From: Pedobacter sp. SYSU D00535
GTDB taxonomy: Bacteria > Bacteroidota > Bacteroidia > Sphingobacteriales > Sphingobacteriaceae
Assembly (NCBI RefSeq): GCF_017355855.1
Contig: NZ_JAFEWD010000001.1
Span: 62,001-126,000, forward strand
Length of the DNA: 64,000 nucleotides
Direction of reading: 5' to 3'
The notes beneath the pieces are model-generated. The model was not told where the DNA came from. It did no database searches and worked only from the letters and a program-made list of their open reading frames with translations. Below, in pieces: positions 1 through 21,157 of the stretch (positions within the stretch are counted from its first letter, which is position 1; each line of letters opens with the position of its first letter). The position numbers were made by a program, and so were the translations under genes.

Positions 1-1
1 T

Positions 2-133: not shown

Positions 134-330
134 AACGAATCTTTCAAAAAATAGATCAGTTGCGAGCGAGCGGAAAAGCAACGCTAAATGTAAGGCAGGA
201 TTCTCCTTATTCCAAATTTAACGGAATTACCTATTCTGTTGTAGAGATCGGTAAGGCAGAACATAAATGTCGGGTGAGTTTGAAGATCGAAGGGCAGATA
301 ATTCATTTTACTCTCTGCGATATACTTTAA
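130..330 (+). CDS. Small hypothetical protein coupled to the upstream gene
   Basis: A 66-residue protein starting MKRIFQKIDQLRASGK. It has no signal peptide or membrane segment and a predicted mixed alpha/beta composition with several short hydrophobic strands in the second half. Its ATG overlaps the upstream stop by four bases, which supports the start and suggests a shared operon. A terminator-like hairpin follows at 357-393. I do not recognise the family. Its position after a Gln/Lys-rich tail and close to an excisionase-type HTH gene suggests an accessory or mobile-element context. Confidence 0.5.
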   Translation: MKRIFQKIDQLRASGKATLNVRQDSPYSKFNGITYSVVEIGKAEHKCRVSLKIEGQIIHFTLCDIL

Positions 331-356
331 TTTATTTCGCTCTGTAGTCTGTTTTT

Positions 357-393
357 CAGTCCTGTCGTTTTAGACAGGGCTGAGTCTTTTGTC
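357..393 (+). terminator. Probable intrinsic terminator
   Basis: A 10-bp stem (CAGTCCTGTC paired with GACAGGGCTG, one G-T pair) around a 6-base loop is followed by AGTCTTTT. It lies 27 bases downstream of the 66-residue gene and fits as the end of that transcript. Confidence 0.55.
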
Positions 394-435
394 AAAGCAC
401 CCATTATTCATAAAAGAGTAGTAAGCTATAGGTAT

Positions 436-591
436 TTAACGCCTAGTAAAACGCGAAATTTTGCTAATTAGAAAGACCCCAGCCAGCATTACAGGCAAAG
501 CAAATATTGCTGCATGCCCCGTCATTACACTATTAAACAGAGCTCCTGTTAACGCAAAAGTCACGAACACTAAAAAAAGTAGACGTATCAT
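436..591 (-). CDS. Small two-helix membrane protein
   Basis: A 51-residue ORF on the minus strand starts MIRLLFLVFVTFALTG and ends ISRFTRR. It has two hydrophobic segments (about residues 3-17 and 28-43) separated by a short polar stretch, and a basic C-terminus, as expected for a small inner-membrane protein with a positive cytoplasmic tail. The plus-strand frame over the same bases has no hydrophobic pattern and looks like a shadow. The upstream region is AT-rich with no obvious Shine-Dalgarno, which is normal in Bacteroidota. Function unknown; it could also be chance. Confidence 0.4.
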   Translation of the reverse strand: MIRLLFLVFVTFALTGALFNSVMTGHAAIFALPVMLAGVFLISKISRFTRR

Positions 592-986
592 ACTTAAATG
601 TTTTATTAAAAATACTAAAAATTATAGTAACGCAAAGTCTATTTGATTTTAATGTGAAAAAGACCGGAGATAAGTTCAGATATATACTTGTGTTTGCGAG
701 AAATAATAGAATCTACTTGATAATCTTTAACTTATTTATGATATTGGCACTCACAAAATTGTGATAAGGTTTAGGTTAACCCGCGGTCTCATACTGCGGG
801 TTCTTTTTTATCATCGGTAATCATACAGATTTACCACTGTTTCCGTCAAGCTAATAGTAATATTCTGAAAATTTGTAATCCGCTCCAGTATCAAAATGTT
901 CGTACATCTTATGTGCTGAACTTTCAAATTTGATGAACTAGCGCTTTCAATAACCTAATGTGATCCGCTGTCAATTAATGAAACTC
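592..986. other. Non-coding AT-rich interval
   Basis: No credible gene in about 395 bases. The only clear structure is the terminator-like hairpin at 778-809, which has no obvious plus-strand gene directly upstream. Confidence 0.5.
778..809 (+). terminator. Intrinsic terminator-like hairpin without an obvious gene
   Basis: A 7-bp stem, AACCCGC paired with GCGGGTT, encloses an 11-base loop and is followed by CTTTTTT. The nearest plus-strand gene ends 450 bases upstream at 330 and already has its own terminator. The hairpin may therefore end an unannotated short transcript from 600-778, or may be a remnant. Confidence 0.5.
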
Positions 987-1337
987 ATGGAGAACCTAAC
1001 ATTCGAACAATTGCCTGAAGCAATTAGGGTATTGATTGAGAAAGTAAATAATATCGAAGCTCTTTTAACAGACTTGCGCCAAAAGGAAAGCGATGAAGAT
1101 AAAATCTACACTGTAGCTGAAGCTGCCGCTTTTCTAAACCTTTCTATTCACACTATATATAGTAAAGTATCTCGGCAGGAAATTCCAGTTAATAAACAAG
1201 GTAAAAAACTGTACTTCTATAAATCAGAATTGATTCAGTGGATTAGAGCCGGAAAAGTAAAAACCACTGCTGAATTGGAATTGGAAGCAAATGGATTTTT
1301 AGAAAAACGAAAAGCGTTAAGATCGTCTAGATATTAG
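987..1337 (+). CDS. Helix-turn-helix (excisionase/MerR-type) DNA-binding protein
   Basis: A 116-residue protein beginning MENLTFEQLPEAIRVL, with an N-terminal helical (coiled-coil-like) segment and then a winged HTH of the excisionase family: YTVAEAAAFLNLSIHTIYSK, then a wing with KQGKKLYFYKSELIQWI. Such proteins in Bacteroidota usually sit in integrated elements and act as small DNA-binding regulators or directionality factors. In-frame starts exist further upstream (GTG 960, ATG 978). I chose 987 because MENLTFEQLP is the typical N-terminus of this family. No integrase is visible nearby. Confidence 0.75.
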   Translation: MENLTFEQLPEAIRVLIEKVNNIEALLTDLRQKESDEDKIYTVAEAAAFLNLSIHTIYSKVSRQEIPVNKQGKKLYFYKSELIQWIRAGKVKTTAELELEANGFLEKRKALRSSRY

Positions 1338-1442
1338 TTGTAGGTCTTTCAACATGGAAGGGCAGGGATTTTAAGTAGTTATTTTGCCCGGAAACAGCTT
1401 TAATGGTAAGAACGTTATGTCCGTTACAATTGAGTATTTCAT

Positions 1443-1994
1443 TTACAGTCTTGCCCACATTGGGTTCTGCTTCAAAACTTTTTTGTGTATAATACAACCC
1501 TCAGAGTGTGCCCCGGGCAGATAGCCAATACTCATTAAAAACTCGTTCACAATTTCTCCACCTGTAAAGCGAAGTGTTATCCCGAACAGTTTAATCCATT
1601 CCTCTTTAGATTTCGGGTGGTGGTACTCTAGCCAATTTGCGAACGAGCCATACTCTTTTTGCAGAACAAGTATTGTCTTTGCGTTTTCTATTGCTGCATT
1701 TACTTTCAGTTTGTTGCGTATAATTCCAGCATCAGTCAAAAGCCGTTCCCTGTCCGTTTCTGTGTAAGCAGCGATTTTTTTAATGTTGAAGTTACTGTAG
1801 GCATTTCTGAACGAGTGCTCCTTTTTCAAAATCGTTTCCCAACTCAATCCTGCCTGATTGATCTCTAAAATTAACCTGCCAAACAATTCATTGTCATCGT
1901 AGATCGGGAAACCATAGTGGTTGTCGTGATAGTTTTTATGCAAAGTCCTTCTTTCTTCGGATTGCATATTTTCAATAGCGGTACAATAGGACAT
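1443..1994 (-). CDS. tag: DNA-3-methyladenine glycosylase I
   Basis: A 183-residue protein, matching the usual length. Tag removes 3-methyladenine from alkylated DNA as the first step of base excision repair. The family's zinc site is visible: Cys4, His23 in the YHDNHYG motif, His163 and Cys167 in GAHSEGC. The active-site stretch LEINQAGLSW carries Glu44 and Trp52, equivalent to Glu38 and Trp46 of the E. coli enzyme. It is the last gene of a leftward group (SDR, NTF2-like, tag). Its first 124 bases overlap the extended 3' end of the NTF2-like gene, which is odd and discussed separately. Confidence 0.92.
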   Translation of the reverse strand: MSYCTAIENMQSEERRTLHKNYHDNHYGFPIYDDNELFGRLILEINQAGLSWETILKKEHSFRNAYSNFNIKKIAAYTETDRERLLTDAGIIRNKLKVNAAIENAKTILVLQKEYGSFANWLEYHHPKSKEEWIKLFGITLRFTGGEIVNEFLMSIGYLPGAHSEGCIIHKKVLKQNPMWARL

Positions 1995-2383
1995 TCTCTA
2001 TCTAATTCTGGTCGTAAGGTCTTAAAGATAAAAGAAATGGCTAAATCAGCCATTCCCATTAAGCCAGAAATTTTGAGCTTCTGTATCAAGCCTTCAATGA
2101 TTTCTAAATGATAATTTAACACAATGGGGCTTCCCTCAAAACTTCCTGAAACTTTTGCTTTTAAAATGCTCTCAGTTTCTTTTTCTTCGAAGCTTATTGG
2201 TTCCATTGTCGCCCTGTATCGGTTATTGGCATTGTCAATCCAATGTTCTATCTCTTTTCGCCCTATATGCGTCTTGCCTTCATCAAAAACTACCGCACTT
2301 TCGGAAAAACAATTTGCGTAAGCAACGCTTTCAAAGTCGTTTTGTGCTTTTACTAAATCTGCTATTACTTTCGGTAAGTTCAT
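1871..2383 (-). CDS. NTF2-like/SnoaL-fold protein with an unusual C-terminal extension
   Basis: The first 110 or so residues (MNLPKVIADLVKAQNDFESV to IQKLKISG) fit a compact NTF2-like cone-fold protein, a family with varied roles as small-molecule enzymes or binding proteins. From memory, relatives end near the Lys-Ile-Ser-Gly position. Here the frame continues about 60 more residues, becoming Thr- and Met-rich and running 124 bases into tag in another frame. A one-base change that removed the normal stop would explain this, so the natural product may be only about 108 residues. It lies 18 bases after the SDR gene, as expected for an operon. Confidence 0.7.
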   Translation of the reverse strand: MNLPKVIADLVKAQNDFESVAYANCFSESAVVFDEGKTHIGRKEIEHWIDNANNRYRATMEPISFEEKETESILKAKVSGSFEGSPIVLNYHLEIIEGLIQKLKISGLMGMADLAISFIFKTLRPELDRECPIVPLLKICNPKKEGLCIKTITTTTMVSRSTMTMNCLAG

Positions 2384-2401
2384 TCTTTTATTCCTGAAAT
2401 A

Positions 2402-3193
2402 TTAAATGGTGGGTACAGTTCCACCGTCAATTATAAAATTTGTTCCTGTTAAGTAGCTGGCTCTTGGTGAAACCAGAAAGCCAACCAATTCTGCTACTTC
2501 TTCCGGTTCGGCTGGCCTGCCGTAAGGTATTCCACCCAATGCATCCATAACACTTTGCTGAGCCTCTTCTATAGTACTGTTTGCATTTCTTGCAATCTCG
2601 CCCAACCAGGCTTTTGATGCTGTTGTATTTATCCATCCCGGCGAAACAGTGAGCACGCGCACACCTTTCGGCGTAACTTCGTTCGATAAGCTTTTACTGT
2701 AATTAATTAATCCTGCTTTTGCAGTAGCATACGGCAAGGTAGAATCGTACAAAGGCAATTTGCCCTGGATGGAAGCAATGTGAATAATCACACCACTCTT
2801 GTTATCGATCATTTGCGGTAAAAAGCCTCTGTCAAGTCGAACCGGAGCCAGCAAATTTGCTTGCAGGGTTGACTCCCAATCGCCATCAGTTAAAGCAGCA
2901 AAGCCACCAGCAGGTGTTACAGAAGAACCCAAGTTATTTACAAGAATATCCAGTCTCCCATAAGAGGACAGAACTTCACTGATTACTTTTTGTGTTCCTT
3001 CTGCTGTACTTAGATCGGAAGGGATAAAGTGCAGACTGCCGGTTTCTTTTTCGGGTGCGTTTCTTGCTGTAATAATAACTGTTGCTCCGGCTTGTAAAAG
3101 TCTTTCTGCAATTGCTCTTCCAGCTCCTTTTGTACCTCCTGTTACCAATGCTATCTTGCCTGATAACTCATTGTTGAAATCAAATTGTTCCAT
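2402..3193 (-). CDS. SDR family NAD(P)-dependent oxidoreductase
   Basis: A 263-residue classical short-chain dehydrogenase. The cofactor loop TGGTKGAG is at residues 18-25, NNLG at 86-89, and the catalytic set is Asn113, Ser141, Tyr155 and Lys159 (YATAK). A C-terminal DGG motif is also present. I start at MEQFDFNNEL rather than at the ATG 69 bases upstream, because the extra 23 residues are outside the fold. The substrate cannot be read from sequence. It is divergent from an HxlR regulator with a palindrome between them, so that regulator probably controls it. Confidence 0.88.
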   Translation of the reverse strand: MEQFDFNNELSGKIALVTGGTKGAGRAIAERLLQAGATVIITARNAPEKETGSLHFIPSDLSTAEGTQKVISEVLSSYGRLDILVNNLGSSVTPAGGFAALTDGDWESTLQANLLAPVRLDRGFLPQMIDNKSGVIIHIASIQGKLPLYDSTLPYATAKAGLINYSKSLSNEVTPKGVRVLTVSPGWINTTASKAWLGEIARNANSTIEEAQQSVMDALGGIPYGRPAEPEEVAELVGFLVSPRASYLTGTNFIIDGGTVPTI

Positions 3194-3263
3194 TTTGAGA
3201 ATTATTATAGGCCAAAATTGAGCTATAAAAGCAGGCTCCACAAGTAGGGCATTACGATTCATA

Positions 3264-3284
3264 TAGGGATAAATTATTCCCCTA
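3264..3284. promoter_or_regulatory. Near-palindrome in the SDR/HxlR divergent promoter
   Basis: TAGGGATAAATTATTCCCCTA is an imperfect inverted repeat centred between the divergent SDR (start 3193) and HxlR (start 3320) genes. HxlR-type regulators are dimers that usually bind such sites next to the gene they control. The operator role is inferred from position and symmetry only. Confidence 0.4.
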
Positions 3285-3319
3285 TTGCACAGCTTGGAAC
3301 ATACGTTTAATTTAGCAGG

Positions 3320-3679
3320 ATGTATGAAAGGAAGATACTTCCAAACTTAAATTGTGGGCTTGATCTGATAGGTGAAGTGCTTTACGGCAAATGGAAAATC
3401 CGCCTGTTATGGTTTATCAATGAAGGCAATAAACGCCCGAGTGAATTGCAACGCAAAATACCCGATGCCTCTCGCAGGGTTTTAAATATTCAATTGAAAG
3501 AATTGGAAGAACATGATCTGATTAAGAAAAAGATCTATCCGGTGGTACCGCCAAAAGTAGAATACAGACTCACTGAATTCGGTAAGACCTTAATTCCAGT
3601 CATTGCCGCCATGGGGCAGTGGGCCGATGAACATGAAGTTCATTTACGTGATGTGATTTTGAAGCAGAACCTAGTGTAA
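3320..3679 (+). CDS. HxlR family transcriptional regulator
   Basis: A 119-residue winged-helix protein with the family signature: an N-terminal Cys (Cys12 in LNCGLDLI), then LYGKWKIRLLWFI, the recognition region RPSELQRKIPDASRRVLNIQ, the wing PVVPPKVEYRLTEFG, and a C-terminal dimer helix. HxlR proteins sense electrophiles or oxidants, often through the N-terminal Cys, and control a divergent oxidoreductase. Here the neighbour is an SDR with an NTF2-like protein and the DNA-alkylation repair gene tag, which would suit a response to reactive compounds (inference). Confidence 0.9.
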   Translation: MYERKILPNLNCGLDLIGEVLYGKWKIRLLWFINEGNKRPSELQRKIPDASRRVLNIQLKELEEHDLIKKKIYPVVPPKVEYRLTEFGKTLIPVIAAMGQWADEHEVHLRDVILKQNLV

Positions 3680-4047
3680 CTCATTGAATATATCTCTCAA
3701 GAATTACCTAATAGTGCTTGAATATTCTTGTTTTCATCGAGGCACAGTTTAAAAGATAACTTCTAGATAAGAATGTGTCATTCTCATTATATCTAAAAAA
3801 TTCGTTTTATTACATAATCGGTGGTAGGGAAGGCTAGCCAGAAAACGTACTTAGATAGTTCAAGAAGTTGGTCTCAAAAAGGAAAAATACTATTTTTTCT
3901 GGACCTACTTCTTGAACCCTCATTTTGATTGCTCTTTTATGAAAATAGGAAGAAATGAGCCAAGCCCAGAAAGTTATGACTTTTTGGCCCTTTAAGTATT
4001 CTTGAAAATCACAATTATTTTCAACTTTAAATAATATTAAGCAGAAC
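3680..4047. other. Non-coding interval with a 16-bp inverted repeat
   Basis: No credible gene. The minus-strand frame at 3834-4094 overlaps the AraC start and shows no family features. The interval holds the inverted repeat described at 3858-3917, and a weaker hairpin near 3966-3988 (AAAGT TATG ACTTT). A similar hairpin occurs at 6128-6141. Confidence 0.5.
3858..3917. repeat. 16-bp imperfect inverted repeat with a 28-base spacer
   Basis: The left arm GTTCAAGAAGTTGGTC (3858-3873) and the right arm GACCTACTTCTTGAAC (3902-3917) pair at 15 of 16 positions. The A/T-rich spacer contains a further weak stem. The repeat lies 130 bases before the AraC-type gene and 180 bases after the HxlR gene. It could be an operator, a transcript-end hairpin or the trace of a small mobile element. 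Confidence 0.6.
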
Positions 4048-4911
4048 ATGTCAGAGGAAATAGTTAAGTATGAATTTAAACATGGCCTACCCATCGAGTT
4101 TGAAATAGTAGATATTACTGAACTATATAGAGATAAGCGGGAGATGATTATTCGACCTCACCGAACTGGTTTCTATCATATTATATGGATTCAAAAGGGA
4201 GGTACTACCCATATAATCGACTTTCAATCTGTAACCGCCCCTGCAAATACTATTCTTTTCTTAAATAAGGATATAGTGCAGATGTTTAACCCTGAACCTT
4301 TCCAGGGACAAGCAATCTTATTTACCGAGGCTTTTTTTTCAAAATCAGATACAGACATAAAGTTTTTAAAGGAGAATGTTTTATTTAATGATCTGTTCTC
4401 CATTTCAAAGTTAGAACTTGATAGTGCTGGGGTGTCTTTTGAAGTGTTATTAACCCTTATGCAGGAGGAAGCTTTGAAAGCCGAAGATGCCTATCAATCC
4501 GGAATTCTAAAAAATTTCCTTCATAGCTTTTTGCTACTGGCTGAGCGGGAAAGAAGAAAGAATGGCTTTTTGGAAGTAAAGAAAGGAGCTGACAAAGATT
4601 ATATTATTCTTTTCCGGGATCTTTTGGAGGGAAATTTCAAACATCAAAAGCAAGTAAACTTCTATGCCTCAAAGCTGAGCGTAACCGAAAAGCGGCTAAA
4701 TCAGGCAACTTCAAAAATTTTGGGGAAGACCGTTAAACAGGTGATTGATGAGAGAGTGATGTTGGAAGCAAAGCGATTGCTGGCTCATACAACCGATAGC
4801 ATAAAGGAAGTAGGCTTTACCCTTGGCTTTGAAGAGCCTACAAACTTCATAAAATATTTTAAAAAGCACAATTCCAGTACGCCCTTTGAATTCAGGGAGA
4901 ACTTCTTATAG
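4048..4911 (+). CDS. AraC family transcriptional regulator
   Basis: A 287-residue protein with an N-terminal cupin-like sensing domain (HRTGFYHIIWIQKGGTTHII, residues about 35-60) and a C-terminal double HTH (about residues 190-287). The second HTH follows the consensus closely: IKEVGFTLGFEEPTNFIKYF, then STPFEFRE. Such proteins bind a small ligand and activate nearby genes. The next gene, a SnoaL-like lipoprotein, follows by 91 bases and is the likely target. The ligand is not predictable. Confidence 0.9.
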   Translation: MSEEIVKYEFKHGLPIEFEIVDITELYRDKREMIIRPHRTGFYHIIWIQKGGTTHIIDFQSVTAPANTILFLNKDIVQMFNPEPFQGQAILFTEAFFSKSDTDIKFLKENVLFNDLFSISKLELDSAGVSFEVLLTLMQEEALKAEDAYQSGILKNFLHSFLLLAERERRKNGFLEVKKGADKDYIILFRDLLEGNFKHQKQVNFYASKLSVTEKRLNQATSKILGKTVKQVIDERVMLEAKRLLAHTTDSIKEVGFTLGFEEPTNFIKYFKKHNSSTPFEFRENFL

Positions 4912-5002
4912 TAACTGTCGCAAAAGTATCATTCAAACGGCTGTTTCTACCTTTTCCAGGGCTTCAAGTCTTCCAATCTTTGTAGCAGAAAAAAACAAGG
5001 AT

Positions 5003-5869
5003 ATGAAATATTTCAAGCAGACTTTATTAACAATAACAGCAGCAATAACATTCAGTTCTTGCTCATCACAGGAAAGAGAAATAATAAAAAAAGAAACAGT
5101 CATGAATAAGAAACAACAAGTAGTAGCTTTATTAAAAGCTATTGAAACCGGAGCGGCAGAGCCAGTAGGTGTAATTGATGCAGCTAAATACAAACAACAC
5201 AACTTAGCAATAGCAGATGGCTTAGCGGGCTTTGGTGCTGCTCTTGCTCAACTACCTAAAGGTTCCGCAAGGGTCAATACCGTAAGGGTATTTGAAGAGG
5301 GGAATTTTGTGTTCGCCCACACAGACTATAACTTCTTTGGCCCGAAAATAGGCTTTGACATCTTCCGCTTTGAGGATGGTAAAATTGTAGAGCACTGGGA
5401 CAATTTACAAGAAAAACCAGTGAACGCAAATCCGAGTGGGCGCACAATGACAGATGGGCCCCAAGAAGCATCTGAACTGGAAAAGACTGAAGCAAATAAA
5501 ATATTAGTCAGAGCTTTCGTAGATGATATTCTGGTTAATGGAAAAATGGAAAAACTAGCGGGATACTTCAATGGTGATAACTACATTCAGCATAACCCAC
5601 AAATTGCTGATCAATTGTCAGGCCTAGGACAGGCACTCGGAGAATGGGCTAAACAGGGAATTACGATGAAATATGATACCATTCATAAAGTATTAGGAGA
5701 AGGTAACTTTGTGCTGGTAGTAAGTGAAGGTCATTTAGCTGGTAAGCTAACTTCGTTCTACGATTTATTCAGAGTAGAAAAGGGAAAGATCGCGGAACAC
5801 TGGGATGTGATAGAGCCAATCGCTCCACAAAGTGAATGGAAAAATCAGAACGGCAAATTTGGTTTTTAA
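5003..5869 (+). CDS. Lipoprotein with two SnoaL/NTF2-like domains
   Basis: A 288-residue protein. The N-terminus MKYFKQTLLTITAAITFSSC is a lipoprotein signal with lipobox Cys20. Two tandem SnoaL-like domains follow (about residues 35-140 and 165-275). They share matching motifs: KYKQHN, then FRFEDGKIVEHWD in the first, and NYIQHNP, then FRVEKGKIAEHWDVI in the second. SnoaL-like proteins act as small hydrolases, isomerases or binding proteins, and the reaction here is unknown. I start at 5003, not the upstream in-frame ATG at 4886, because only this start gives a signal peptide and does not overlap the AraC gene. Confidence 0.82.
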   Translation: MKYFKQTLLTITAAITFSSCSSQEREIIKKETVMNKKQQVVALLKAIETGAAEPVGVIDAAKYKQHNLAIADGLAGFGAALAQLPKGSARVNTVRVFEEGNFVFAHTDYNFFGPKIGFDIFRFEDGKIVEHWDNLQEKPVNANPSGRTMTDGPQEASELEKTEANKILVRAFVDDILVNGKMEKLAGYFNGDNYIQHNPQIADQLSGLGQALGEWAKQGITMKYDTIHKVLGEGNFVLVVSEGHLAGKLTSFYDLFRVEKGKIAEHWDVIEPIAPQSEWKNQNGKFGF

Positions 5870-5883
5870 TTGAACATAATGAA

Positions 5884-5920
5884 AAACAGTAGAGCCCTTT
5901 CAGGGGCTTTACTGTTTTTA
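5884..5920 (+). terminator. Intrinsic terminator after the SnoaL lipoprotein
   Basis: A stem of AAACAGTAGAGCCC with GGGGCTTTACTGTTT (one bulge), loop TTTCA, ends in a T-run. It begins 15 bases after the stop codon. Confidence 0.75.
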
Positions 5921-6603
5921 CTAGCAGGGGAAATATGAAACCTTATAAAGTCTATGATCGAAGAGAATAAAATAAATGCAGTTGCTTTCTAGGACTTGAT
6001 GTTTAACCAAAATAAGCACTAGCATTAACTCTTGAACTGGGTTATCATCTAATTAAATCAAATTTTTATGGCCTAATTAAACCCTACTTTCTGACTCCCT
6101 TTTCCAGAGGAAATAACGAAGGTTCATAAAGTTATCACTTTTTGAACTAATGGACTATACTCACATCCGGAAGAGCCAGATGAGAAGTATTAAAAAGCAT
6201 ATTGAAGAAATTCTATTTAAGATCCGAAAGGCAGAATCTGGGAAGGGATAAAAGCTTAATGGTCCATTTGATCCGTGATAGTTAGCTTGTATAACTAGGT
6301 GAATAAAATAAAAAGGGAAGCCTTAAGCTTCCTATCCGTTTCTAGTAACTGATTTTAGAACAATGCTGTGGAGATCAGATGAAGGGATATACTGAAATTT
6401 TATTTAGCTTAATTGATAATTAGTAGAGTTGACATCATGTGTAGTAAAAAAAAAATTTCCACAAGCATGAAACAGCCTATCTTTTAAGTTATATTTGAAC
6501 TACCTGACCATAATTACTTACACCTCCCGTTATTTCAATTAGTTCAGGCCGATGAGTTTCACGATTGCTGCATGATTTTTCATGTGGGCTTATTAATGCT
6601 TGA
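5921..6603. other. Long non-coding interval before the RT operon
   Basis: About 680 AT-rich bases without a convincing gene. It holds an 11-bp hairpin with a 4-base loop at 6122-6147 (GTTCATAAAGT with ACTTTTTGAAC). Directly after this is a 36-codon frame (6150-6260, starting MDYTHIRKSQMRSIKKHIEE) that is very basic and helical, and may be the remnant of a longer gene. A hairpin at 6316-6332 is followed on the minus strand by CTTTTTATTTT, a terminator with no minus-strand gene feeding it. The interval is large enough to carry a non-coding RNA belonging to the reverse transcriptase operon; none can be proven from sequence. Confidence 0.45.
6490..6497 (+). promoter_or_regulatory. Candidate -7 box of the RT operon promoter
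   Basis: TATATTTG matches the Bacteroidota -7 consensus TAnnTTTG and lies 107 bases before the helicase ATG. No good -33 TTTG is visible at the expected distance, so this is a weak call. Confidence 0.3.
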
Positions 6604-9600
6604 ATGATTAGTTTATTTCCTGAAGAAAAGTTCGTTGTTAAGTTTGAATGTTCAAAAGTTATTCCTGTGCATGGTAATAAGATCGAGTATCATGTTGGCA
6701 CAGAAAAAGGCATACTGAGAAAGTATACGGCTAGTGATTATAGTGGATTTGAATTTTTTTCAGATAATGGTTCCAAGTATTTCATTTCAACAGTAAAATC
6801 AAGCATTCCTAATGGATACGATGCTGCCTTCTTTGTTGATACAACTAAATATGATAAACTAACTTACTCTGTTTTAGCTAAATGCTCAAAGAAAGCTGTA
6901 TATATCAACATCCCCAAGAGTAGCGAAGTAGAGACTTCATGGGAGAACGCCTTCAAGTATAAAAAAGAGACTAGGAGTAAAGATAAATCATCGATATTAC
7001 AAAAGGGGCTTAGACCCCCACAGTTAGGAGCGTTGCATGCAATTCAAGCGCATTGGAGTATTTCTTCTAAGCCTGCTGTAGTCGTTATGCCAACAGGAAC
7101 AGGCAAGACTGAGACAATGTTATGTTTAACTGTTGCTGAGAAGCTTACTGGTCTACTAGTAATCGTACCAACGGCATCATTGCGCACACAAATTTTTGAT
7201 AAATTTAAAACTCTTGGAATATTAAAACAACCAGATACAGAGATCATTTCCTTTGAAGCTAAGGCTCCTTTGGTAGGACATTTAAACACAAAAATTAAAT
7301 CTGACGAAGATGCTGATCAAATTTTTAAGTCAAATGTTATAGTTTCAACCCCGCAGATTATTACAGGAATTCTTAAAGGACCTTCAAAGATTAAGAGCAA
7401 ATTTTTACAATGGCTTAAGGTGCTTACTATGGATGAAGCGCATCATAGTCAAGCACAGGAGTGGAATAAAATCAAGCAAAATGTAGAAATTTTAGAGCTC
7501 CCTGTTCTTCTCTTTACTGCAACTCCATTTAGAAACGATAAAAAAAGGCTTCAAGGTGAAATAATTTACAATTATCCATTATCACTTGCTCAAAGGGATG
7601 GGTACTACAAGAATATAAATTTTCATCACATTTTAGATTTTAATCCTGAAACAGCTGATAAAGCAATTGCGCAGAAAGCAATTGATATTTTGATTAAGGA
7701 TCGAAAAGTGTATGATCATATACTCATGGCACGTGTTGATCTTAAAGAGCGAGCTCAGATCGTGTTTGATGATATATATAGTAAGTATACAGAGTTCAAT
7801 CCGATATTAATAGATAGTGATACGCCCGATAAAAAGGCGTTATTGGAAGATATTAAAAAGGGACTTCACAAGATAATTGTGTGTGTTGACATGCTTGGAG
7901 AAGGATTTGACTTGCCTCAACTTAAAATTTGTGCATTACATGATCTTCATAAGAACATAACAACGTCCTTTCAATTTTTCGGCAGGTTTACTCGTGACTC
8001 AAGCTTAAGGCTGGGTGAAGCATCGATAGTTGCAAATATTGCTGACCCAAACTTGAAGGGTACATTAAACAAGTTGTATCAGAAGGATTCAGACTGGAAT
8101 ACTATTATAAAAAGCTCAAACGAAGAGATAATTGAGTCGATAGTTAAGGAAGAGAATTTTTTTAAAAACTTCTCTCAAGCGGAAATTCCTAATAAAATCC
8201 CGTTAAGAAATATAATGCCGGCAATGAGTACGGTTGTATTTCAACTTCATGACTCTAAAATCGAATGGAACCCCAACAAGTACAAAAAGTTGTTTGATAA
8301 AGATAAGTATGAAGCAGTCTCAGTAGAACATGAAGAAGAAAAGCTGTTAATAATCATCGTTAAACAGATTGAATCTGTAAAATGGGGAAAAATTGATGAT
8401 TTATTAAATTGTGCGTACCATTTGTACATCGTATACCTAAACGAAGAACAGAAGTTGTTGTATATCAACAGTTCTAATAATGGAAGTATTCATCGAGAAT
8501 TAGGCGAACTAGTTGTTGGTGAGAATATATCGTTATTTAATGAGTCTAAAATTTACCGATGTCTGGGAAATATTTTTCAAATAGAACTTTTTAATCTTGG
8601 GCTGAAATCGGTACTTGATGGTCCGATTAGTTTTACAATGTACGCCGGAAATGGTATTGTAAATGGATTGGATGAATTAGATAATAAAACTAAATCAAGT
8701 TCCAATCTTTTTGGGGTTGGATATGAGGATGGCGAGAAAATAAGTATTGGTTGTTCATCAAAAGGGCGTGTTTGGACTAAGCTTGTAAAAAGTATACCTG
8801 ATTTTTGCACGTGGTGTGATTTGCTTGGATTAAAGCTTCTCGATGAATCTATAAATACAGATGATATATTCAGCTTCATTCAAAAGCCAGAAGTAATTAC
8901 AACCTTGCCTATTGACCTTGTCCCTGTCTCAATATCTTGGAATGAGGAACTTTATGCGTATCCGAACTTAGCACTCTACCGAAATATACCAATTGTAGAC
9001 TATGGTATTTCTCTTGTATCATTTGATGCAAGTATTTTAAACTTCTCAATTCAAATTGATGAGTTAAGAATTGAGTACAGATTGCATTTGATTGATGAAG
9101 GCAGAGGCTTTAAATATGAGCTTAAATCTACTATCCCACTATATATAACTCAAGGAGGCGATTTGAAATTATTGGAGGAGGTGTTTTATGAATATCCGCC
9201 AATCATTCGATTCCATGATAACTCAAAAATGCACAATAATATACTGCTCAGATTTAAGGGTGATTACGATATTTTTGACGTCAATAATATTATTCCTTAC
9301 GATTGGAAAGGTGTTAATATTCAGCAAGAGTCTCAGAAGGAAGAAAAACGTCTAAATTCCATTCAATATTTTATTTTATTGCAGTTGAAATCAGATGAAG
9401 ATTGTAAGATTGTATTTGATGATGACAGCGCTAACGAGGCAAGTGATATAGTTGCAATAAAGTATTGGGCTGATGCTGACTATAAAATTGATGTCAGTTT
9501 ATATCATTGCAAATTTTCAAGCAAACCGCAAAGTGGAGCAAGGTTAAAAGATATTTATGAAGTAAATGGACAGGCTCAAAGAAGCTTTCATTGGCGACAT

Positions 9601-9882
9601 CAGAGTATCGAGCTTCTTAATCACATGATCCGTCGAGAAAATTTGAGAATTAATCAGGGCAGAAATTCTAGGTTCGAGAAGGGTACGAAAGATGACATTA
9701 AACTCTTATTAAGTATGTTATCTACCGGTTATTGCAGGATCAACTTTAATATTTATGTAGTACAACCTGGATTAAGTAGAGAACTATTGATTAATGAACC
9801 CGAGCATCTAAAACTTTTGGGAGCGACCGATTTACTGTTAAAGAAGACGGGAAACAATTTTTACATCATTACTGATAAATAG
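6604..9882 (+). CDS. SF2 DEAD/DEAH helicase, first gene of the RT operon
   Basis: A 1092-residue protein. An N-terminal region of about 130 residues precedes a complete SF2 helicase core: Walker A MPTGTGKT at 162-169, DEAH at 277-280, motif III FTATPFR at 304-310, motif V VCVDMLGEGFDLP at about 426-438, and motif VI QFFGRFTR at 457-464. The core resembles the translocase subunits of restriction-type systems. The last 600 residues match no family I recognise and have no visible nuclease motif. The gene starts an AT-rich operon, with MBL, protease-RT and polymerase genes following at 31 bases or less. Likely role: an ATP-driven DNA motor in a defence or element-maintenance system (inference). 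Confidence 0.85.
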   Translation: MISLFPEEKFVVKFECSKVIPVHGNKIEYHVGTEKGILRKYTASDYSGFEFFSDNGSKYFISTVKSSIPNGYDAAFFVDTTKYDKLTYSVLAKCSKKAVYINIPKSSEVETSWENAFKYKKETRSKDKSSILQKGLRPPQLGALHAIQAHWSISSKPAVVVMPTGTGKTETMLCLTVAEKLTGLLVIVPTASLRTQIFDKFKTLGILKQPDTEIISFEAKAPLVGHLNTKIKSDEDADQIFKSNVIVSTPQIITGILKGPSKIKSKFLQWLKVLTMDEAHHSQAQEWNKIKQNVEILELPVLLFTATPFRNDKKRLQGEIIYNYPLSLAQRDGYYKNINFHHILDFNPETADKAIAQKAIDILIKDRKVYDHILMARVDLKERAQIVFDDIYSKYTEFNPILIDSDTPDKKALLEDIKKGLHKIIVCVDMLGEGFDLPQLKICALHDLHKNITTSFQFFGRFTRDSSLRLGEASIVANIADPNLKGTLNKLYQKDSDWNTIIKSSNEEIIESIVKEENFFKNFSQAEIPNKIPLRNIMPAMSTVVFQLHDSKIEWNPNKYKKLFDKDKYEAVSVEHEEEKLLIIIVKQIESVKWGKIDDLLNCAYHLYIVYLNEEQKLLYINSSNNGSIHRELGELVVGENISLFNESKIYRCLGNIFQIELFNLGLKSVLDGPISFTMYAGNGIVNGLDELDNKTKSSSNLFGVGYEDGEKISIGCSSKGRVWTKLVKSIPDFCTWCDLLGLKLLDESINTDDIFSFIQKPEVITTLPIDLVPVSISWNEELYAYPNLALYRNIPIVDYGISLVSFDASILNFSIQIDELRIEYRLHLIDEGRGFKYELKSTIPLYITQGGDLKLLEEVFYEYPPIIRFHDNSKMHNNILLRFKGDYDIFDVNNIIPYDWKGVNIQQESQKEEKRLNSIQYFILLQLKSDEDCKIVFDDDSANEASDIVAIKYWADADYKIDVSLYHCKFSSKPQSGARLKDIYEVNGQAQRSFHWRHQSIELLNHMIRRENLRINQGRNSRFEKGTKDDIKLLLSMLSTGYCRINFNIYVVQPGLSRELLINEPEHLKLLGATDLLLKKTGNNFYIITDK

Positions 9883-9913
9883 CTCGATCGACAGTAATCA
9901 ATCAAGTAAAATC

Positions 9914-10906
9914 ATGAAGATAAAATTTTTAAAAGCAGGGACTGGAGACTCCATATTAATTCAGCATAATAACAAAAATATATTAATTGATGGTGGTAAT
10001 GAACCCAAATTTTTACTATCGCAAGTTTCTCAGATTCGGCAACTTGAAGAAAAGTTAGACTTGCTTATTATTACGCATCATGATGATGATCATATAAGAG
10101 GAATTCTTGAACTCTTAAATCTTATTATAGATGAAGATTATGGCAAAGACTTTATCAAAGAAGTCGTTTTTAATTCTCCAAGAAAGATCATGGGAAAAAT
10201 AAGTAGGGACGATTCAAATAATTTATCCTATAAACAAGCTTTCGAGGTAGAAAATCTTCTAACACGAATAGGTCGTAATTGGAAGACTTCTATTGAGTTT
10301 GGTATATGTAGAGAATTTGAGGATCTCAAGCTTACTTTTTTTGGACCTACCACGGAAATCTTAGAGAAATATTCAACTCAGAAAGGTGCATATCTAACTG
10401 GAGATTATCGTTGTGATTGGAATTCGCCAATGGCGACTTTGGAAGAGTTTATAGACGATGCAAGCTTGGATACGTCTCTCCCAAATAAAACAAGTGTCGT
10501 TGTTCTGATCGAACATGAAAATTCGCGGGTTTTGTTAACTGCAGACTCTACACCTGATCGATTGGAAGACGTTGTAAATACTTTAATTGATCCTAATACT
10601 GGAAAAGCTTTTTTTTCTGCTGTAAAATTACCTCATCATGGAAGTTACAGAAGTTTATCAAAAGGAATTCTTGAGAAAATCGATTGTAACAAGTTTATCA
10701 TAAGCACCAACAGTCAGAAACATTTTCTTCCAAATAAAAGAGCCATTCTGAAGATATTAAAATTCTTGAGAAAAGATACCAAGCCTGTGGAATTACTTTT
10801 CAATTATGAGGAGGCTCTAAATGCGTTAAAAATTTCAGATTTAGAGAAAAAGAAATATAAAATCGAATTAATAAAAAACAACGAACCTTATGGAGTCGCT
10901 CTCTGA
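9914..10906 (+). CDS. ComEC-like metallo-beta-lactamase-fold hydrolase
   Basis: A 330-residue soluble MBL-fold protein. It opens KIKFLKAGTGDSILIQ and LIDGG, as in ComEC/Rec2-type MBL domains. The metal motif is H-x-D-x-D-H at 55-60 (THHDDDH). Later motifs are NKTSVVVLIE with LLTADS, and LPHHGS. There are no membrane segments, so it is a stand-alone hydrolase, probably a phosphodiesterase or nuclease. It lies 31 bases after the helicase and overlaps the protease-RT gene by 17 bases. MBL and trypsin-like proteins also occur together in AVAST type I systems (from memory), which makes a defence role plausible. Confidence 0.85.
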   Translation: MKIKFLKAGTGDSILIQHNNKNILIDGGNEPKFLLSQVSQIRQLEEKLDLLIITHHDDDHIRGILELLNLIIDEDYGKDFIKEVVFNSPRKIMGKISRDDSNNLSYKQAFEVENLLTRIGRNWKTSIEFGICREFEDLKLTFFGPTTEILEKYSTQKGAYLTGDYRCDWNSPMATLEEFIDDASLDTSLPNKTSVVVLIEHENSRVLLTADSTPDRLEDVVNTLIDPNTGKAFFSAVKLPHHGSYRSLSKGILEKIDCNKFIISTNSQKHFLPNKRAILKILKFLRKDTKPVELLFNYEEALNALKISDLEKKKYKIELIKNNEPYGVAL

Positions 10907-13283
10907 AAAACTGAAAAGTTGCGGCATAAAAATTAAAACTAACATTAGTGGTGTCAACGGTTACGGCTCCGGCGTATTGTATTCTACTCCTAACCGTATT
11001 TCTTACAATTATGTTCTTACCGCAAAACATTTATTTCAGGAAGATTCAAATACACCCTATGACAGTCATAAGGTAGGGAAAATCGAACTTGAATACCTGC
11101 ATGATCATAAATTTCACAGGTTAGATCTTATTAAAAAGTCAGAGGTAAAGGATAGGCTAATTGTGTTTGAGGAAGATTTTGCGGTAATAAAAGTAAGCAA
11201 AAACCACAAGTTGTCTTTTAGACAAATTTTTGTGGCGGACGAGCTACAGGTTGAAGATGAAAAATTCTTTTTTTGGGCTGTTTTTTCTGCTAACGAAGGT
11301 GAGTTAAGCAAATTTAACTTGGAGAGAAATGATATAACAGCAAAACGTTTCTCTTTACATGCTAATCTTAAAGCAAGTGCCCTACCAGGAATGTCGGGCG
11401 CCGGTGTTTTCCTAAATACTAAAAGCGTGCTTTATGGGATAATTTCTAGGTATCCCAATGAAGATTTTCAAAATGAAACCATTGATTGTACCAGAATCAA
11501 ATTTGCAGATATTAATTTGCAATTAAAATCCTTAGGACTAGTTGAATTAAGTACAGAAAATTCTAGTTTTAAAAGGGAGGTTGGTAGCAATGTTGTAGAT
11601 ATAAATCAAGCTATAATAAATGATGCGTGTTTGAATTTAGAGCTAGCTAGGAGGCGGCTTTCAACGGATATATCAGATGACTGGTTTTACGACCCATTAA
11701 AATATATTGATTTACTTAATCAAGATTATCTTTTTGCTCAATTGGAGCCATACTTATCCGGTGTAACGTACGAAGCTTCAGTAGCTGAAAGATTTTACGT
11801 ACCGAAAAAGCAATTTACATTAAGGCAAAGTTTAAATGTACCATTTATTGATAGAATAATGTATATGGCAGCGGTTGGGGTAATTGCAGAAAAGCTTGAT
11901 TCAGCTATGATTAACTCAGTCTATTCAGCCCGATATAACAGATTTTCCAAAAACAACTTGATCCTAAATGGAGTAGAGCAATGGAAGAAATTGCAATATC
12001 AGTTAGAAGAGACAGTACTACAAAGAAATGTAGATGGAAAATATGATTTTAACTGCGTTATTGAAGTTGATCTGTTGAATTTTTATGACAATATAAGCAA
12101 GAAGCTTCTTCATGAAAAAGTTTTACGAGTATGCGAGACTCAAAACGAAAAGAATGCAGCTCTCCTTCTAACCAAAATGTTAAGAAGGTTCAGTAATCAA
12201 GATGTCGGACTTCCTCAAAATAGTGATGCATCGTCATTGCTGGCCTCATTTTATCTTAATCAAGTAGATGTATTTATGCAAAGCCATGGCATAGTGTACT
12301 ACAGATTCATGGACGACATCAGAATTTTTTGCAAAAATAAATTTGAAGCCAGGCGAATACTACAAACTTTCGAATTTGAGTTGAGAAGATGCTATCTGTC
12401 TGTTAATTCACAAAAAACAAAAATTATAACGCTTATCGAGGAAAATGAAAAAGGTTGCTCTTCTGACGAGAAATTTAGAAAAGACTTTTTTGTAGAATTT
12501 AACTTCGATTTGGCCAAGATTAGCAGATATAGACAATCAGAGAATCAACAGTACCTTAATGAAGCTTTTCATGGAAGTATTAAATTGATAAAGGATAATA
12601 TAAAGGTTAAAGTAGAGCGTTTCGATGATGCTCAAAAAAGATTAAACTTTGCATTTAATACATTTCGCTTTTTGGCGATAAAAAAGTTCTCTCTTGAAAA
12701 CGCTGCTTCCGATTTTCTTCCAACCATTTTGAAGGCGACCAAAGCCTTGATTAATAGACCCTGGACCACTACAGAAGTTTGCAAAGTCTTAAATTATATC
12801 TCTTCTGATGTTATTGAAACACATTTTATTGATTCTCTAAAAAGAATCGTATTGAAAGTAAGATATAACACTTATGCCTTTCAAACTTATCAAATATGGT
12901 TACTCCTTGCTAAACATAAATGTAACCATGCAGATCTCAAAGCCCATGCTATAAGACAGATTGAAAGGAATGACGACACCAATCGCTCCGTAATCGGCGC
13001 AATGATTATCTATTTATGTTCGGTAAATCCGGCCTATAGAAGAGTAGTTCTAAGAAAACTGGGCGAAGGTTTCACTCATGGGTATTTTCAAAATAGGATT
13101 GCGCTTATTGCTTTGAGACACTTTACTTCAGATCTTTTACCATTTGACAAAATAGAAAGTACCTTAAATAAAGCTCATGCTTTTAGCCATAGGTGGAAAG
13201 AAAAGGATCTTGTTTTTGTACAGGGGGCAGAGGAATCGGAAGAGACGGAAGAAAGTGAGGCTGAACAATTATATTCTCTATAA
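10890..13283 (+). CDS. Trypsin-like protease fused to a UG/Abi-like reverse transcriptase
   Basis: A 797-residue fusion. Residues 1-215 form a trypsin-like serine protease: GYGSGVLY, then TAKH with His47, EEDFAVI with Asp96, and PGMSGAG with Ser169, so the triad is intact. Residues about 300-515 are a reverse transcriptase: FTLRQSLNVPFIDRIMYMA, VDLLNFYDNIS with Asp394, LPQNSDASSLLASFYLNQVD, FMDD at 473-476, and SVNSQKTKI. LPQ is followed by Asn rather than Gly, which is closer to the UG/Abi RTs than to group II introns or retrons. Residues 560-770 are helical, like the alpha-repeat tail of UG/Abi RTs. An acidic tail ends the protein. It overlaps the genes on both sides, so production is coupled. 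Confidence 0.85.
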   Translation: MESLSEKLKSCGIKIKTNISGVNGYGSGVLYSTPNRISYNYVLTAKHLFQEDSNTPYDSHKVGKIELEYLHDHKFHRLDLIKKSEVKDRLIVFEEDFAVIKVSKNHKLSFRQIFVADELQVEDEKFFFWAVFSANEGELSKFNLERNDITAKRFSLHANLKASALPGMSGAGVFLNTKSVLYGIISRYPNEDFQNETIDCTRIKFADINLQLKSLGLVELSTENSSFKREVGSNVVDINQAIINDACLNLELARRRLSTDISDDWFYDPLKYIDLLNQDYLFAQLEPYLSGVTYEASVAERFYVPKKQFTLRQSLNVPFIDRIMYMAAVGVIAEKLDSAMINSVYSARYNRFSKNNLILNGVEQWKKLQYQLEETVLQRNVDGKYDFNCVIEVDLLNFYDNISKKLLHEKVLRVCETQNEKNAALLLTKMLRRFSNQDVGLPQNSDASSLLASFYLNQVDVFMQSHGIVYYRFMDDIRIFCKNKFEARRILQTFEFELRRCYLSVNSQKTKIITLIEENEKGCSSDEKFRKDFFVEFNFDLAKISRYRQSENQQYLNEAFHGSIKLIKDNIKVKVERFDDAQKRLNFAFNTFRFLAIKKFSLENAASDFLPTILKATKALINRPWTTTEVCKVLNYISSDVIETHFIDSLKRIVLKVRYNTYAFQTYQIWLLLAKHKCNHADLKAHAIRQIERNDDTNRSVIGAMIIYLCSVNPAYRRVVLRKLGEGFTHGYFQNRIALIALRHFTSDLLPFDKIESTLNKAHAFSHRWKEKDLVFVQGAEESEETEESEAEQLYSL

Positions 13284-14722
13284 TGAAAAGATTTGCGATA
13301 ATTCTACTTAATAACCAATGGCATGGATTAAATATCGACGACCATTCTGAATCAATTTTGCATCTTCCAGTTTCTCAAGATGTTACCTTAGTTTCGTCCC
13401 AAACTGCAGATGTCATTAGATCTATAAAATCGATGCAAGGCATCAAAACTCTGCCTGATATAATTGATCTTGAATCATTTGATAAGCAAATGTCTCAAGA
13501 AGGAAAAGAGTTTCGAGCCGATAAAAAATGGAAACTTCTCTCGTTTCTAAAGCACTATAGGGTTGTTGGTCAGGATTTTAAATTAAGCTCTGCTACAATT
13601 AAAGAATGCTTGGAAGCTATTGCAAAAGTGTTTCTTCAATTGTACGAAAAGGATACGGAAGAAAAAAATAGGTTCGAGGAGATTGAGAAAAAAATAAATA
13701 AAGTTATATACAGAAGGCAGCTTGAAGGGATAAAAATTAACGCACATATAATTTTAGAATTATGCAAGAGTTTAGAGAGGGAAATCTATAGGGCAAAAAA
13801 CAACTTGCAATTAAAGTATAATATCTATAATCCAGATAGTATTGATCAACAACGGCATTATATAGAAAAATGTGGTTATAATCTCATAAAATCTACAACG
13901 TTTACTTTTAAGGCAAGAAGAGGAGATGATGAAGTTTGTAAAATGTTTTACGAAATTTTTCGAAATCAGCAAGATCTTGATAGTTTGCTAATGATGCTAT
14001 CGCATTGGGGAGGAGAGAATAGAACGAACCCAACTTATCATGGCTTCGGTACAATTACATCTCGGATAACATTAAGAGAACCTGGTCTTCAAAATCTTAG
14101 AAAGGCCAATCGGGTGGTTATTGAAGCAGATGAAGGCTATAATTTACTTTATATTGATTATTGTCAATTTGAAGCTGGTATTCTTGCATCAATAAGCAAG
14201 GACAATAATTTGATAAACCTTTATAAAAAAGACATTTATAGGGATCTTGCAAGGGAGGTAATTGGTGACGAGACTAAACGAGGAGACGCCAAAATCATTT
14301 TCTACAGATATATCTATGGTGACAATTCATTAAGTGAACATGCGAAGGCTTATTTTCACAGATTCAAGAAGCTTGAAGTTTTTCGAGATAAGGTATATAA
14401 TTCGATTCACAGCAGCAGTCGAATCGGAACAACCAAAGGAAACTACAGATATCGAAAGAACGATGAATATACTTGGGCATTAAGTCACTTAATCCAAGGT
14501 ACAGCATCATTGATTTATAAGCAGGCTGTATTACGTGTTGCGGAAGATGTTCAGGGCGCTGATTTATTAATTCCCATGCATGATGGCACCCTTTACCAAG
14601 TAGCTACTGGTTCCTATATCAATGTTAAGGAACAGATTGAACAGATTTACAAGGATGAATTTAAGAAGATTTGCCCAGAAATAGATGTTTTAGTAAAGTG
14701 TGATGAACGTTTTCATGTATAG
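13283..14722 (+). CDS. Family-A DNA polymerase-like protein with altered motif C
   Basis: A 479-residue protein whose C-terminal 330 residues follow the PolA palm and fingers: TSRITLREPGLQNLRK, motif A IDYCQFEAG (Asp292), motif B RGDAKIIFYRYIYG (333-346), the QGTA helix at 405-408, and motif C PMHDGTLY (431-438). Motif C normally reads HDE; here the Glu is Gly435. No 5' nuclease domain is present, and the first 130 residues have no clear exonuclease motif, so it is about half the size of Pol I. It begins at the TAATG overlap with the RT gene. It may copy the RT product to double strand or extend DNA ends (inference). Confidence 0.85.
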   Translation: MKRFAIILLNNQWHGLNIDDHSESILHLPVSQDVTLVSSQTADVIRSIKSMQGIKTLPDIIDLESFDKQMSQEGKEFRADKKWKLLSFLKHYRVVGQDFKLSSATIKECLEAIAKVFLQLYEKDTEEKNRFEEIEKKINKVIYRRQLEGIKINAHIILELCKSLEREIYRAKNNLQLKYNIYNPDSIDQQRHYIEKCGYNLIKSTTFTFKARRGDDEVCKMFYEIFRNQQDLDSLLMMLSHWGGENRTNPTYHGFGTITSRITLREPGLQNLRKANRVVIEADEGYNLLYIDYCQFEAGILASISKDNNLINLYKKDIYRDLAREVIGDETKRGDAKIIFYRYIYGDNSLSEHAKAYFHRFKKLEVFRDKVYNSIHSSSRIGTTKGNYRYRKNDEYTWALSHLIQGTASLIYKQAVLRVAEDVQGADLLIPMHDGTLYQVATGSYINVKEQIEQIYKDEFKKICPEIDVLVKCDERFHV

Positions 14723-15010
14723 CAAATCTTAAATGCTTCTCCCGTACTTCTTTTAATGTACGACCATTTGATCGTTTTAATCAGATACTAAGAAACTACA
14801 CGCTTCATTTTTGTATGCAGTAGCAAAATATTTTCAGGTTGGACAAGATTTTGCATTGTCAGATAGATAAAACTAAATACTAGAATCTAAATGTTATTTG
14901 AAATAATTACCTTTGTAACACGCTGAAAATAACAGTATTAATGGATTCTGTTTTTCTGTTTCATATTTGTATCTCTTGATATACATCTAGCTGACTATCA
15001 ATAGTGTTTT
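14723..15010. other. Non-coding interval between RT operon and lipoprotein array
   Basis: About 290 AT-rich bases without a gene. A TACCTTTG box at 14908-14915 matches the Bacteroidota -7 consensus and could serve the lipoprotein array. No strong terminator follows the polymerase gene. Confidence 0.4.
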
Positions 15011-15108
15011 ACTGCAAGAAAGAAGAAGAAGTAAAACCAGCTGAAAGCCAGCCAGAATCAACCGTAATGACAGGCGGAATAGGTGACAAGACCTATGGCT
15101 GGGATTAA
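15011..15108 (+). pseudogene. 5'-truncated copy of the tiny lipoprotein gene
   Basis: From the Cys codon at 15013 onward it matches the other copies through ...TMTGGIGDKTYGWD-type coding sequence to TAA at 15106-15108, but the signal-peptide half is absent. Upstream in frame there is a TGA at 14992 and no ATG, only a GTG at 15004. It therefore lacks a usable signal and is probably the broken edge of the array. Confidence 0.75.
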
Positions 15109-15137
15109 TTATTAAAGAACACAAACAGACTAAGAAT

Positions 15138-15272: not shown

Positions 15273-15333
15273 GGCTGGGATTAAGTATTAGGAAGCATAA
15301 ACAGATTACACCAAACACAAAAAGACTAAGAAC

Positions 15334-15480: not shown

Positions 15481-15527
15481 TTATTAGAAACACAACAGAT
15501 TACGCTAAACATAAACAGACTAAAAAC

Positions 15528-19798: not shown

Positions 19799-21157
19799 AT
19801 GACAAACTCCGACACTATCGTAGCGCTCGCAACGCCTTCGGGACTAGGCGCAATAGGCGTGATCCGGCTTTCCGGGCCGGACGCAATTGCCATCGCCAAT
19901 AGCGTTTTCAAAGGCAAAAACCTTTCTCAACAGGCATCCCATACCATTCATTTTGGAACAATCCGCGACGGAGAAGCAATCCTCGACGAGGTACTGGTTT
20001 CGCTCTTTATTGCTCCCCACTCTTATACCAGGGAGAACGTGGTAGAAATCTCCACCCATGGGTCGCCCTATATCATCGAAAGTATGATCAAGCTGATGAT
20101 CAGGAAAGGAGCAAGGGCAGCCCAGCCGGGAGAATTTACGCTGCGGGCGTTTCTCAATGGCGGGATGGATTTGTCGCAGGCAGAAGCTGTTGCCGACCTC
20201 ATTGCATCCAACTCTCAGGCTTCTCACCAGGTAGCACTCCAGCAAATGCGAGGCGGCTTTTCAAACGAACTGAAGGTGCTTCGCGAGCAGCTGATCAATT
20301 TTGCTTCTCTTATTGAGTTGGAACTCGATTTTTCGGAGGAGGATGTAGAGTTTGCCAACCGCGATCAGTTGAAGCAACTCATCCTGCAGATCACCCGAGT
20401 GTTAACGCGGTTAATTCGCTCCTTCGAACAGGGCAACGTAATGAAGAACGGAGTACCGGTAGTAATTGCCGGAAAACCGAACGTCGGGAAATCAACACTA
20501 CTAAATGCGCTGCTGAATGAGGACCGCGCAATAGTCTCTGACATTGCCGGAACGACCCGGGATACTATCGAAGATGAGATGACGATTGGCGGTATCTTGT
20601 TCCGCTTTATAGATACGGCTGGAATCCGCGAAACGGAGGATTTTATAGAAGCGAAGGGCGTGGAGCGCACGCTCGAAAAAATGAAACAGGCAAAGCTGAT
20701 CATTTACCTGGTGGATCCGTTGCAGAAGCTGGAAGAGATCAGGGAACAGATAAGCGAAGTGGAGCAACTCCAGATTCCCCTCGTAGCAGTAGTGAATAAA
20801 AGCGATCTGCTGAGTCCGCAGGAACAGTATGAGTTCGCCCAGTTGAATCCCAACTTCATCTCGGCCAAAAATAAGGAAGGAATAGACGAACTTAAGGACG
20901 AAATCCTGCGCAAAGTAAACCTGCACAACATCAGCACCGACGATGTGCTGGTAACCAATATCCGACACGTCGAAGCACTCCAGCGAACACTGGATTCCCT
21001 CGAACGCGTCCTTCATGGCATCGACAATCCGGTAACATCCGATTTTCTCGCTATGGACATCAAACAGGCTCTACATTACCTGGGTGAGATTACGGGCACA
21101 GTCACAACAGACGACCTGCTCGATAATATCTTTTCCAAGTTCTGTATCGGCAAATAA
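19799..21157 (+). CDS. mnmE: tRNA modification GTPase MnmE
   Basis: A 452-residue protein, matching the family (E. coli 454). With MnmG it makes the 5-carboxymethylaminomethyl group at the wobble uridine of several tRNAs. The N-terminal folate-binding domain starts DTIVALATPSGLGAIGVIRL. The G domain has GKPNVGKSTLLN (G1), TTRDTIEDE (G2), DTAGIRET (G3) and NKSD (G4). The C-terminus is FCIGK with the catalytic Cys. I start at MTNSDTIVA, since the upstream 26 residues are not part of the fold. Confidence 0.96.
   Translation: MTNSDTIVALATPSGLGAIGVIRLSGPDAIAIANSVFKGKNLSQQASHTIHFGTIRDGEAILDEVLVSLFIAPHSYTRENVVEISTHGSPYIIESMIKLMIRKGARAAQPGEFTLRAFLNGGMDLSQAEAVADLIASNSQASHQVALQQMRGGFSNELKVLREQLINFASLIELELDFSEEDVEFANRDQLKQLILQITRVLTRLIRSFEQGNVMKNGVPVVIAGKPNVGKSTLLNALLNEDRAIVSDIAGTTRDTIEDEMTIGGILFRFIDTAGIRETEDFIEAKGVERTLEKMKQAKLIIYLVDPLQKLEEIREQISEVEQLQIPLVAVVNKSDLLSPQEQYEFAQLNPNFISAKNKEGIDELKDEILRKVNLHNISTDDVLVTNIRHVEALQRTLDSLERVLHGIDNPVTSDFLAMDIKQALHYLGEITGTVTTDDLLDNIFSKFCIGK

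Follow-up and report, generated by a model that had tools for sequence, protein, structure and literature searches.

Do four adjoining genes near the end of a Pedobacter conjugative element form one undescribed defence system, or do they combine a known system with an unrelated neighbour? The genes lie in a window of 64,000 nucleotides from Pedobacter sp. SYSU D00535 (contig C11, positions 62001-126000, forward strand) and encode, in order, proteins of 1092, 330, 797 and 479 amino acids (Table 1). An earlier note had described four plus-strand genes joined by a 31-base spacer, a 17-base overlap and a 1-base overlap, and the coordinates of the open reading frames bear this out. The cluster is also AT-rich relative to its flanks, as the note had it, with a GC content of 0.33-0.36 against 0.34-0.42 on the left and 0.41-0.50 on the right. 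Pfam agrees with the gene identities proposed there: an SF2 helicase (ResIII/DEAD), a ComEC-like MBL protein (Lactamase_B), a fusion of Trypsin_2 and RVT_1, here called the trypsin-RT, and a family-A polymerase (DNA_pol_A). An identical copy of the stretch on contig C12 appears to reflect a contig overlap and not a second operon.

Table 1. Features of the locus and of the surrounding element; positions are those of the window.
Feature	Position	Strand	Basis
Integrative conjugative element, right end (about 77 kb as a whole)	1..15013	.	17-bp repeats, conjugation genes
Stand-alone SF2 helicase with RadD-like core and PD-(D/E)xK-like C-terminus; neighbour	6604..9882	+	co-occurrence, conservation, model
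MBL-fold predicted pro-nuclease (RTasMBL), ComEC-like	9914..10906	+	PADLOC RTasMBL, conservation
UG9-large RT with N-terminal trypsin-like domain	10890..13283	+	PADLOC RT_UG9_large
Trypsin/HtrA-like domain, residues 1-217, triad H47, D96, S169	10890..11540	+	VIA-align, conservation
RT palm and fingers, residues 245-536, D394, D475, D476	11622..12497	+	Pfam RVT_1, conservation
C-terminal helical-repeat domain, residues 539-777, as in class-1 UG/Abi RTs	12504..13220	+	model alignment
Short family-A DNA polymerase (RTasPolA), without exonuclease domain	13283..14722	+	PADLOC RTasPolA
Uninterrupted attachment site (empty attB), mnmE 3' end	21140..21156	+	letter-by-letter attL/attR/attB comparison

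A catalogued DRT subtype

The claim of an undescribed system did not withstand a search with the defence profiles of PADLOC-DB 2.0.0, which contains dedicated models for the MBL protein, the trypsin-RT and PolA. The trypsin-RT matches RT_UG9_large with 1053 bits (residues 1-797 on profile positions 1-772 of 772), and both partners are matched over their full length, the MBL protein by RTasMBL with 434 bits and PolA by RTasPolA with 479 bits. Because of these full-length matches to three dedicated models, together with records in the literature, positions 9914-14722 are, as judged from sequence, a catalogued candidate DRT subtype, UG9-large. The grouping goes back to the UG/Abi survey of Mestre et al. 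2022, as cited in PMC12799240, and a PolA-type domain (PRK14975) co-occurs with UG9 RTs in 94% of cases (PMC8934634). The genes, their order, the domain fusion and the full-length profile matches are those of the UG9-large DRT with no essential difference; here, an unrelated helicase gene adjoins upstream. A search of mainly non-subscription literature found no published antiphage or biochemical data for any UG9 system.

Several other systems share parts of this architecture. UG9-small has the RT with its helical domain and the adjacent PolA, but neither the trypsin domain nor the MBL gene. Pairs of MBL and trypsin are known from Hachiman, AVAST, Lamassu and rare DRT variants, and activation by cleavage has been shown for Hachiman and AVAST (Tuck et al. 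2025, PMC12799240). In Hachiman HamMAB and AVAST type 1, too, a homologous MBL gene immediately precedes a defence enzyme that bears a trypsin domain; this enzyme is, however, HamA or a STAND ATPase instead of an RT, PolA is missing, and Hachiman brings its own helicase, HamB. The nuclease-protease form of Hachiman was rejected as an assignment, as neither HamB nor HamA models figure among the matches listed at E-values up to 1 (for the RT, the best 25 of 45). AVAST type 1 was set aside as well, since the MBL protein scores 146.6 bits on Avs1a against a cut-off of 420 and the protease is fused to an RT and not to a STAND ATPase. LmuA models of Lamassu match the MBL and trypsin parts (218 and 96 bits), but the operon is without an SMC-type gene (LmuB).

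Among the DRTs, DRT4, DRT6, AbiK and Abi-P2 share the RT with C-terminal helical repeats (Z 17-21 for DRT6, DRT4 and AbiK in comparisons of the model) and are without a protease, nuclease or PolA partner, DRT4 and AbiK being single-protein systems. DRT3 and DRT7 have in common with UG9-large two polymerase activities per system, and a double-stranded or duplex-like product has been reported for them; in place of a family-A enzyme, DRT3 uses an RT and DRT7 a primase-polymerase domain for the second activity. An assignment to DRT7 (UG10) was therefore dismissed, the second polymerase of the present operon being a separate family-A enzyme and not an RT-fused primase-polymerase.

Distribution and origin of UG9-large

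Across 395 Bacteroidota genomes a UG9 RT with PolA occurs in only three, namely the present genome and two with UG9-small. A genome scan with a single RT as query and a viral-contig scan with PolA as query returned nothing; an alignment query succeeded and yielded 80 UG9 loci from the genomes of 84,980 species. The RTasPolA profile alone is unsuited to such searches because housekeeping PolA matches it too. The upstream side is visible at 16 UG9-large loci, two of which are near-identical Pedobacter loci and two of which, L095 and L096, are limited to 1.7 and 0.4 kb on this side.

At all 16 the MBL gene lies directly upstream of the RT and PolA directly downstream, and PolA is present in 74 of the 80 UG9 loci. 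The earlier note had united the RT with three further genes, yet the RT also occurs without some of them, which, like a good match to a defined subtype, the note had named as counter-evidence: it stands without an adjacent helicase at 16/16 UG9-large loci, and most other UG9 loci consist of RT and PolA with neither MBL nor trypsin. Since these UG9-small relatives retain RT and PolA alone, the comparison of loci marks this pair as the core and MBL and trypsin as an add-on. A branch with an SH-aLRT of 99 sets all UG9-large members apart in a tree built from 45 UG9 RTs, consistent with the single origin given by Tuck et al. (PMC12799240). A single gain of MBL and trypsin is thus likely from the phylogeny, and falls short of proven because a wider tree including distant RTs leaves the two UG9-large clades unjoined. 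The sole operon of the 16 outside Bacteroidota is that of L096, in a record titled Limnohabitans (Betaproteobacteria), and reflects either transfer or a contaminated MAG.

The neighbourhoods of other UG9-large loci hold a type I RM system (L080), Mokosh (L093) and PADLOC candidate defence genes (L081, L089). Together with the family membership, these neighbours give good support to the role in defence that the earlier note had proposed.

Structural and catalytic features

The AlphaFold model of the trypsin-RT has a mean pLDDT of 87.6 and shows an RT fused to a C-terminal helical-repeat domain, the feature of class 1 UG/Abi RTs. In VIA-align comparisons of the model, residues 1-217 align with DegP, DegQ, Deg2 and V8 protease (Z 17-18). 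Residues 248-777 align with DRT6 (Z 20.9, 4.2 A, 449 residues), DRT4 (Z 20.3, 450 residues) and AbiK (Z 17.3, 465 residues), and these alignments take in the helical domain. The protease triad is kept in 15/15 UG9-large proteins and the three catalytic aspartates of the RT are invariant in 25/25 UG9 RTs. Judging from the modelled fold, DNA synthesis by this RT is probably protein-primed and untemplated. Four tyrosines are conserved (Y294, Y325, Y470 and Y708); we propose none of them as priming residue because Y294 is also common to group II intron RTs.

Catalytic residues of the partners are conserved too. The metal ligands of the MBL protein (H55, D57, D59, H60, D211 and H242) are invariant in 16 homologues, and so are D292, E297, R333, K337 and D434 of PolA (16/16). 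Compared with the MBL domain of ComEC, the protein carries about 54 extra residues between the two halves of the metal site, within about residues 72-190. By analogy to HamM, which has comparable gating inserts, this insert is a candidate for the gate of a pro-nuclease. The cleavage sites of HamM follow isoleucines (Tuck et al. 2025, PMC12799240). In the MBL protein, the second clade does not retain I92, and position 161 holds Leu or Ile in 16/16.

A proposed synthesis-gated cascade

Gene content, folds, intact catalytic residues and the order MBL-RT-PolA are directly observed; from them, and by analogy to characterised systems, we infer the steps that would join RT synthesis to a protease-gated nuclease as well as the role of PolA. 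In this proposal the class-1-like RT would synthesise DNA independently of any nucleic-acid template and probably serve as its own primer. Such synthesis is known from AbiK and Abi-P2, which need trimers or hexamers for it, AbiK priming on a tyrosine (PMC9508834), and the random single-stranded DNA synthesised by DRT4 turns toxic once a phage protein protects it (review PMC13213688). PolA would then take the RT product as template for a second strand, or extend it. A precedent for paired synthesis is DRT3, in which two RTs make complementary strands (PMC13174585). Phage infection may alter the amount or the DNA or oligomer state of the RT-DNA complex, and this altered state would activate the N-terminal trypsin-like domain. 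The protease would in turn cut the gating insert of the MBL pro-nuclease, as in Hachiman and AVAST, where a trypsin domain cuts the MBL gate and releases a DNase (Tuck et al. 2025, PMC12799240). The freed nuclease would degrade DNA, and the infected cell would stop or die (abortive infection).

We favour with reasonable confidence the reading of positions 9914-14722 as a UG9-large defence system with such a cascade, next to a separate and probably defensive helicase. More tentative is the specific idea that the fused protease responds to DNA which the RT makes and PolA completes, with PolA turning a single-stranded product double-stranded; we consider this synthesis gating of the protease-nuclease cascade somewhat less likely than not. 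UG9 would combine a DNA maker that is probably non-templated with a second DNA polymerase and a candidate protease-activated nuclease, and the joining of these activities makes it a good case for studying what role the DNA made by such RTs plays. Given the conserved catalytic residues and the 16 relatives, UG9-large can be tested directly.

The conjugative element and its attachment site

The operon is the last cargo at the end of an integrative conjugative element. The element continues to the left of the window, on contig C11 from base ~79, with its copy on contig C12 at about 681213-758147. There it is flanked by two copies of a 17-bp direct repeat, TTCTGTATCGGCAAATA, at the 3' end of mnmE. 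A tyrosine integrase lies just inside the left end, and the conjugation genes comprise TraG, TraM, DUF4138 and a coupling protein.

This location bears on the unlikely alternative that the RT-PolA core serves maintenance of mobile elements or DNA repair, with defence secondary or absent. UG9 RT and PolA are found on conjugative plasmids as well as on the present element, but defence cargo is common on mobile elements, related loci stand among defence genes, and the protease-nuclease pair of UG9-large is otherwise known from defence systems.

On contig C11 the right end of the element (15013) abuts a degenerate copy of a tandem array. In the window, positions 15014-15675 hold about four tandem copies (one degenerate) of a unit of ~200 bp with a very small lipoprotein-like gene. 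The occurrence of an occupied and an empty site in one assembly could result from excision in some cells of the culture, or from misassembly, and for this reason the DNA to the right of 15013 is not a certain neighbour of the operon. In a Chitinophagaceae MAG (L085), mnmE lies ~3 kb upstream of the UG9-large operon, and no convincing flanking repeat was found at that locus. The same element as in the window also carries adjoining genes for an AAA ATPase and an HNH nuclease, in this order, a Septu-like pair (L055:15547-17570, contig C11 35547-37570) and possibly further defence cargo. Further right in the window, long repeats of about 84-95% identity at ~50.7-52.6 kb and ~59.3-61.2 kb probably belong to one repetitive gene family.

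Searches for a non-coding RNA

Several DRTs need an ncRNA, and the RT could in principle copy an associated ncRNA like class 2 DRTs, with PolA making the second strand. We regard this as quite improbable. PolA beside an RT does suggest second-strand synthesis, and at other loci gaps of roughly 160-800 bp upstream of the MBL gene are noncoding. In the window, however, only 31 bases precede this gene, and the RT with its helical domain has a class-1 build. Moreover, blastn among UG9-large loci revealed no conserved nucleotide sequence in the gaps upstream of MBL or in the region downstream of PolA, a comparison to which conservation of structure alone is invisible. There is no Rfam match in window positions 1-24000, and a Bacteroidota promoter motif occurs upstream of MBL in 3/15 loci, no more than in shuffles. 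Template-free synthesis by a class-1-like RT stays the preferred reading.

The adjoining helicase

In this section we focus on whether the helicase belongs to the operon, as the earlier note had proposed with its four-gene unit. A true four-gene system, in which the helicase acts like HamB as a sensor of foreign DNA ends or structures and drives the RT-borne protease, would account for the shared strand, the short spacer to MBL, the promoter-like TANNTTTG upstream of the helicase with none upstream of MBL, the cooperation of the HamMAB helicase with MBL and protease (PMC12799240) and a helicase homologue ~5 kb upstream in the two Pedobacter loci, but it is very improbable, as the helicase adjoins none of the 16 UG9-large loci, lies within 9 kb of the operon only in those two Pedobacter loci, where several genes intervene, and is not matched by the PADLOC HamB models, so that its identification as HamB is unsupported.

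The distribution of the helicase itself also speaks against the unit. Homologues, roughly 25-50% identical and mostly full length, occur in 64 plasmid records and in 7/395 Bacteroidota genomes including the present one. Around 25 inspected homologue loci, including the closest (G308, 48-50% identity), there is no UG9 RT, MBL or PolA. Their neighbours vary: a Wadjet-like set, type I RM, a pair of PD-(D/E)XK and UvrD, a toxin-antitoxin pair, or none. The helicase is a separate, stand-alone and probably defensive gene, and in annotation it should not be counted in the UG9-large system.

Its core, the only part listed in VIA-align comparisons of the model, is placed closest to RadD (Z 26), and other families are possible. 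The C-terminus has invariant residues D940, E945, D948, H968xK970 and Q990 and a predicted alpha-beta-beta-beta-alpha arrangement, which suggests a PD-(D/E)xK nuclease in a model with a mean pLDDT of only 66.5. No PADLOC model was found that covers the protein beyond its core. The family (homologues L045, L046, L073-L076, L160-L172 and L252-L255) is widespread, has no PADLOC model of its own and is a candidate single-gene defence family. On rhizobial and roseobacter plasmids (L163, L165) a member forms a tight trio with a PD-(D/E)XK nuclease and a UvrD helicase. Two relatives of the host have a gene row (L045:1639-13431 and L046:496-12273) that is headed by the helicase and, from reading of the sequences, looks like a Wadjet-type set.
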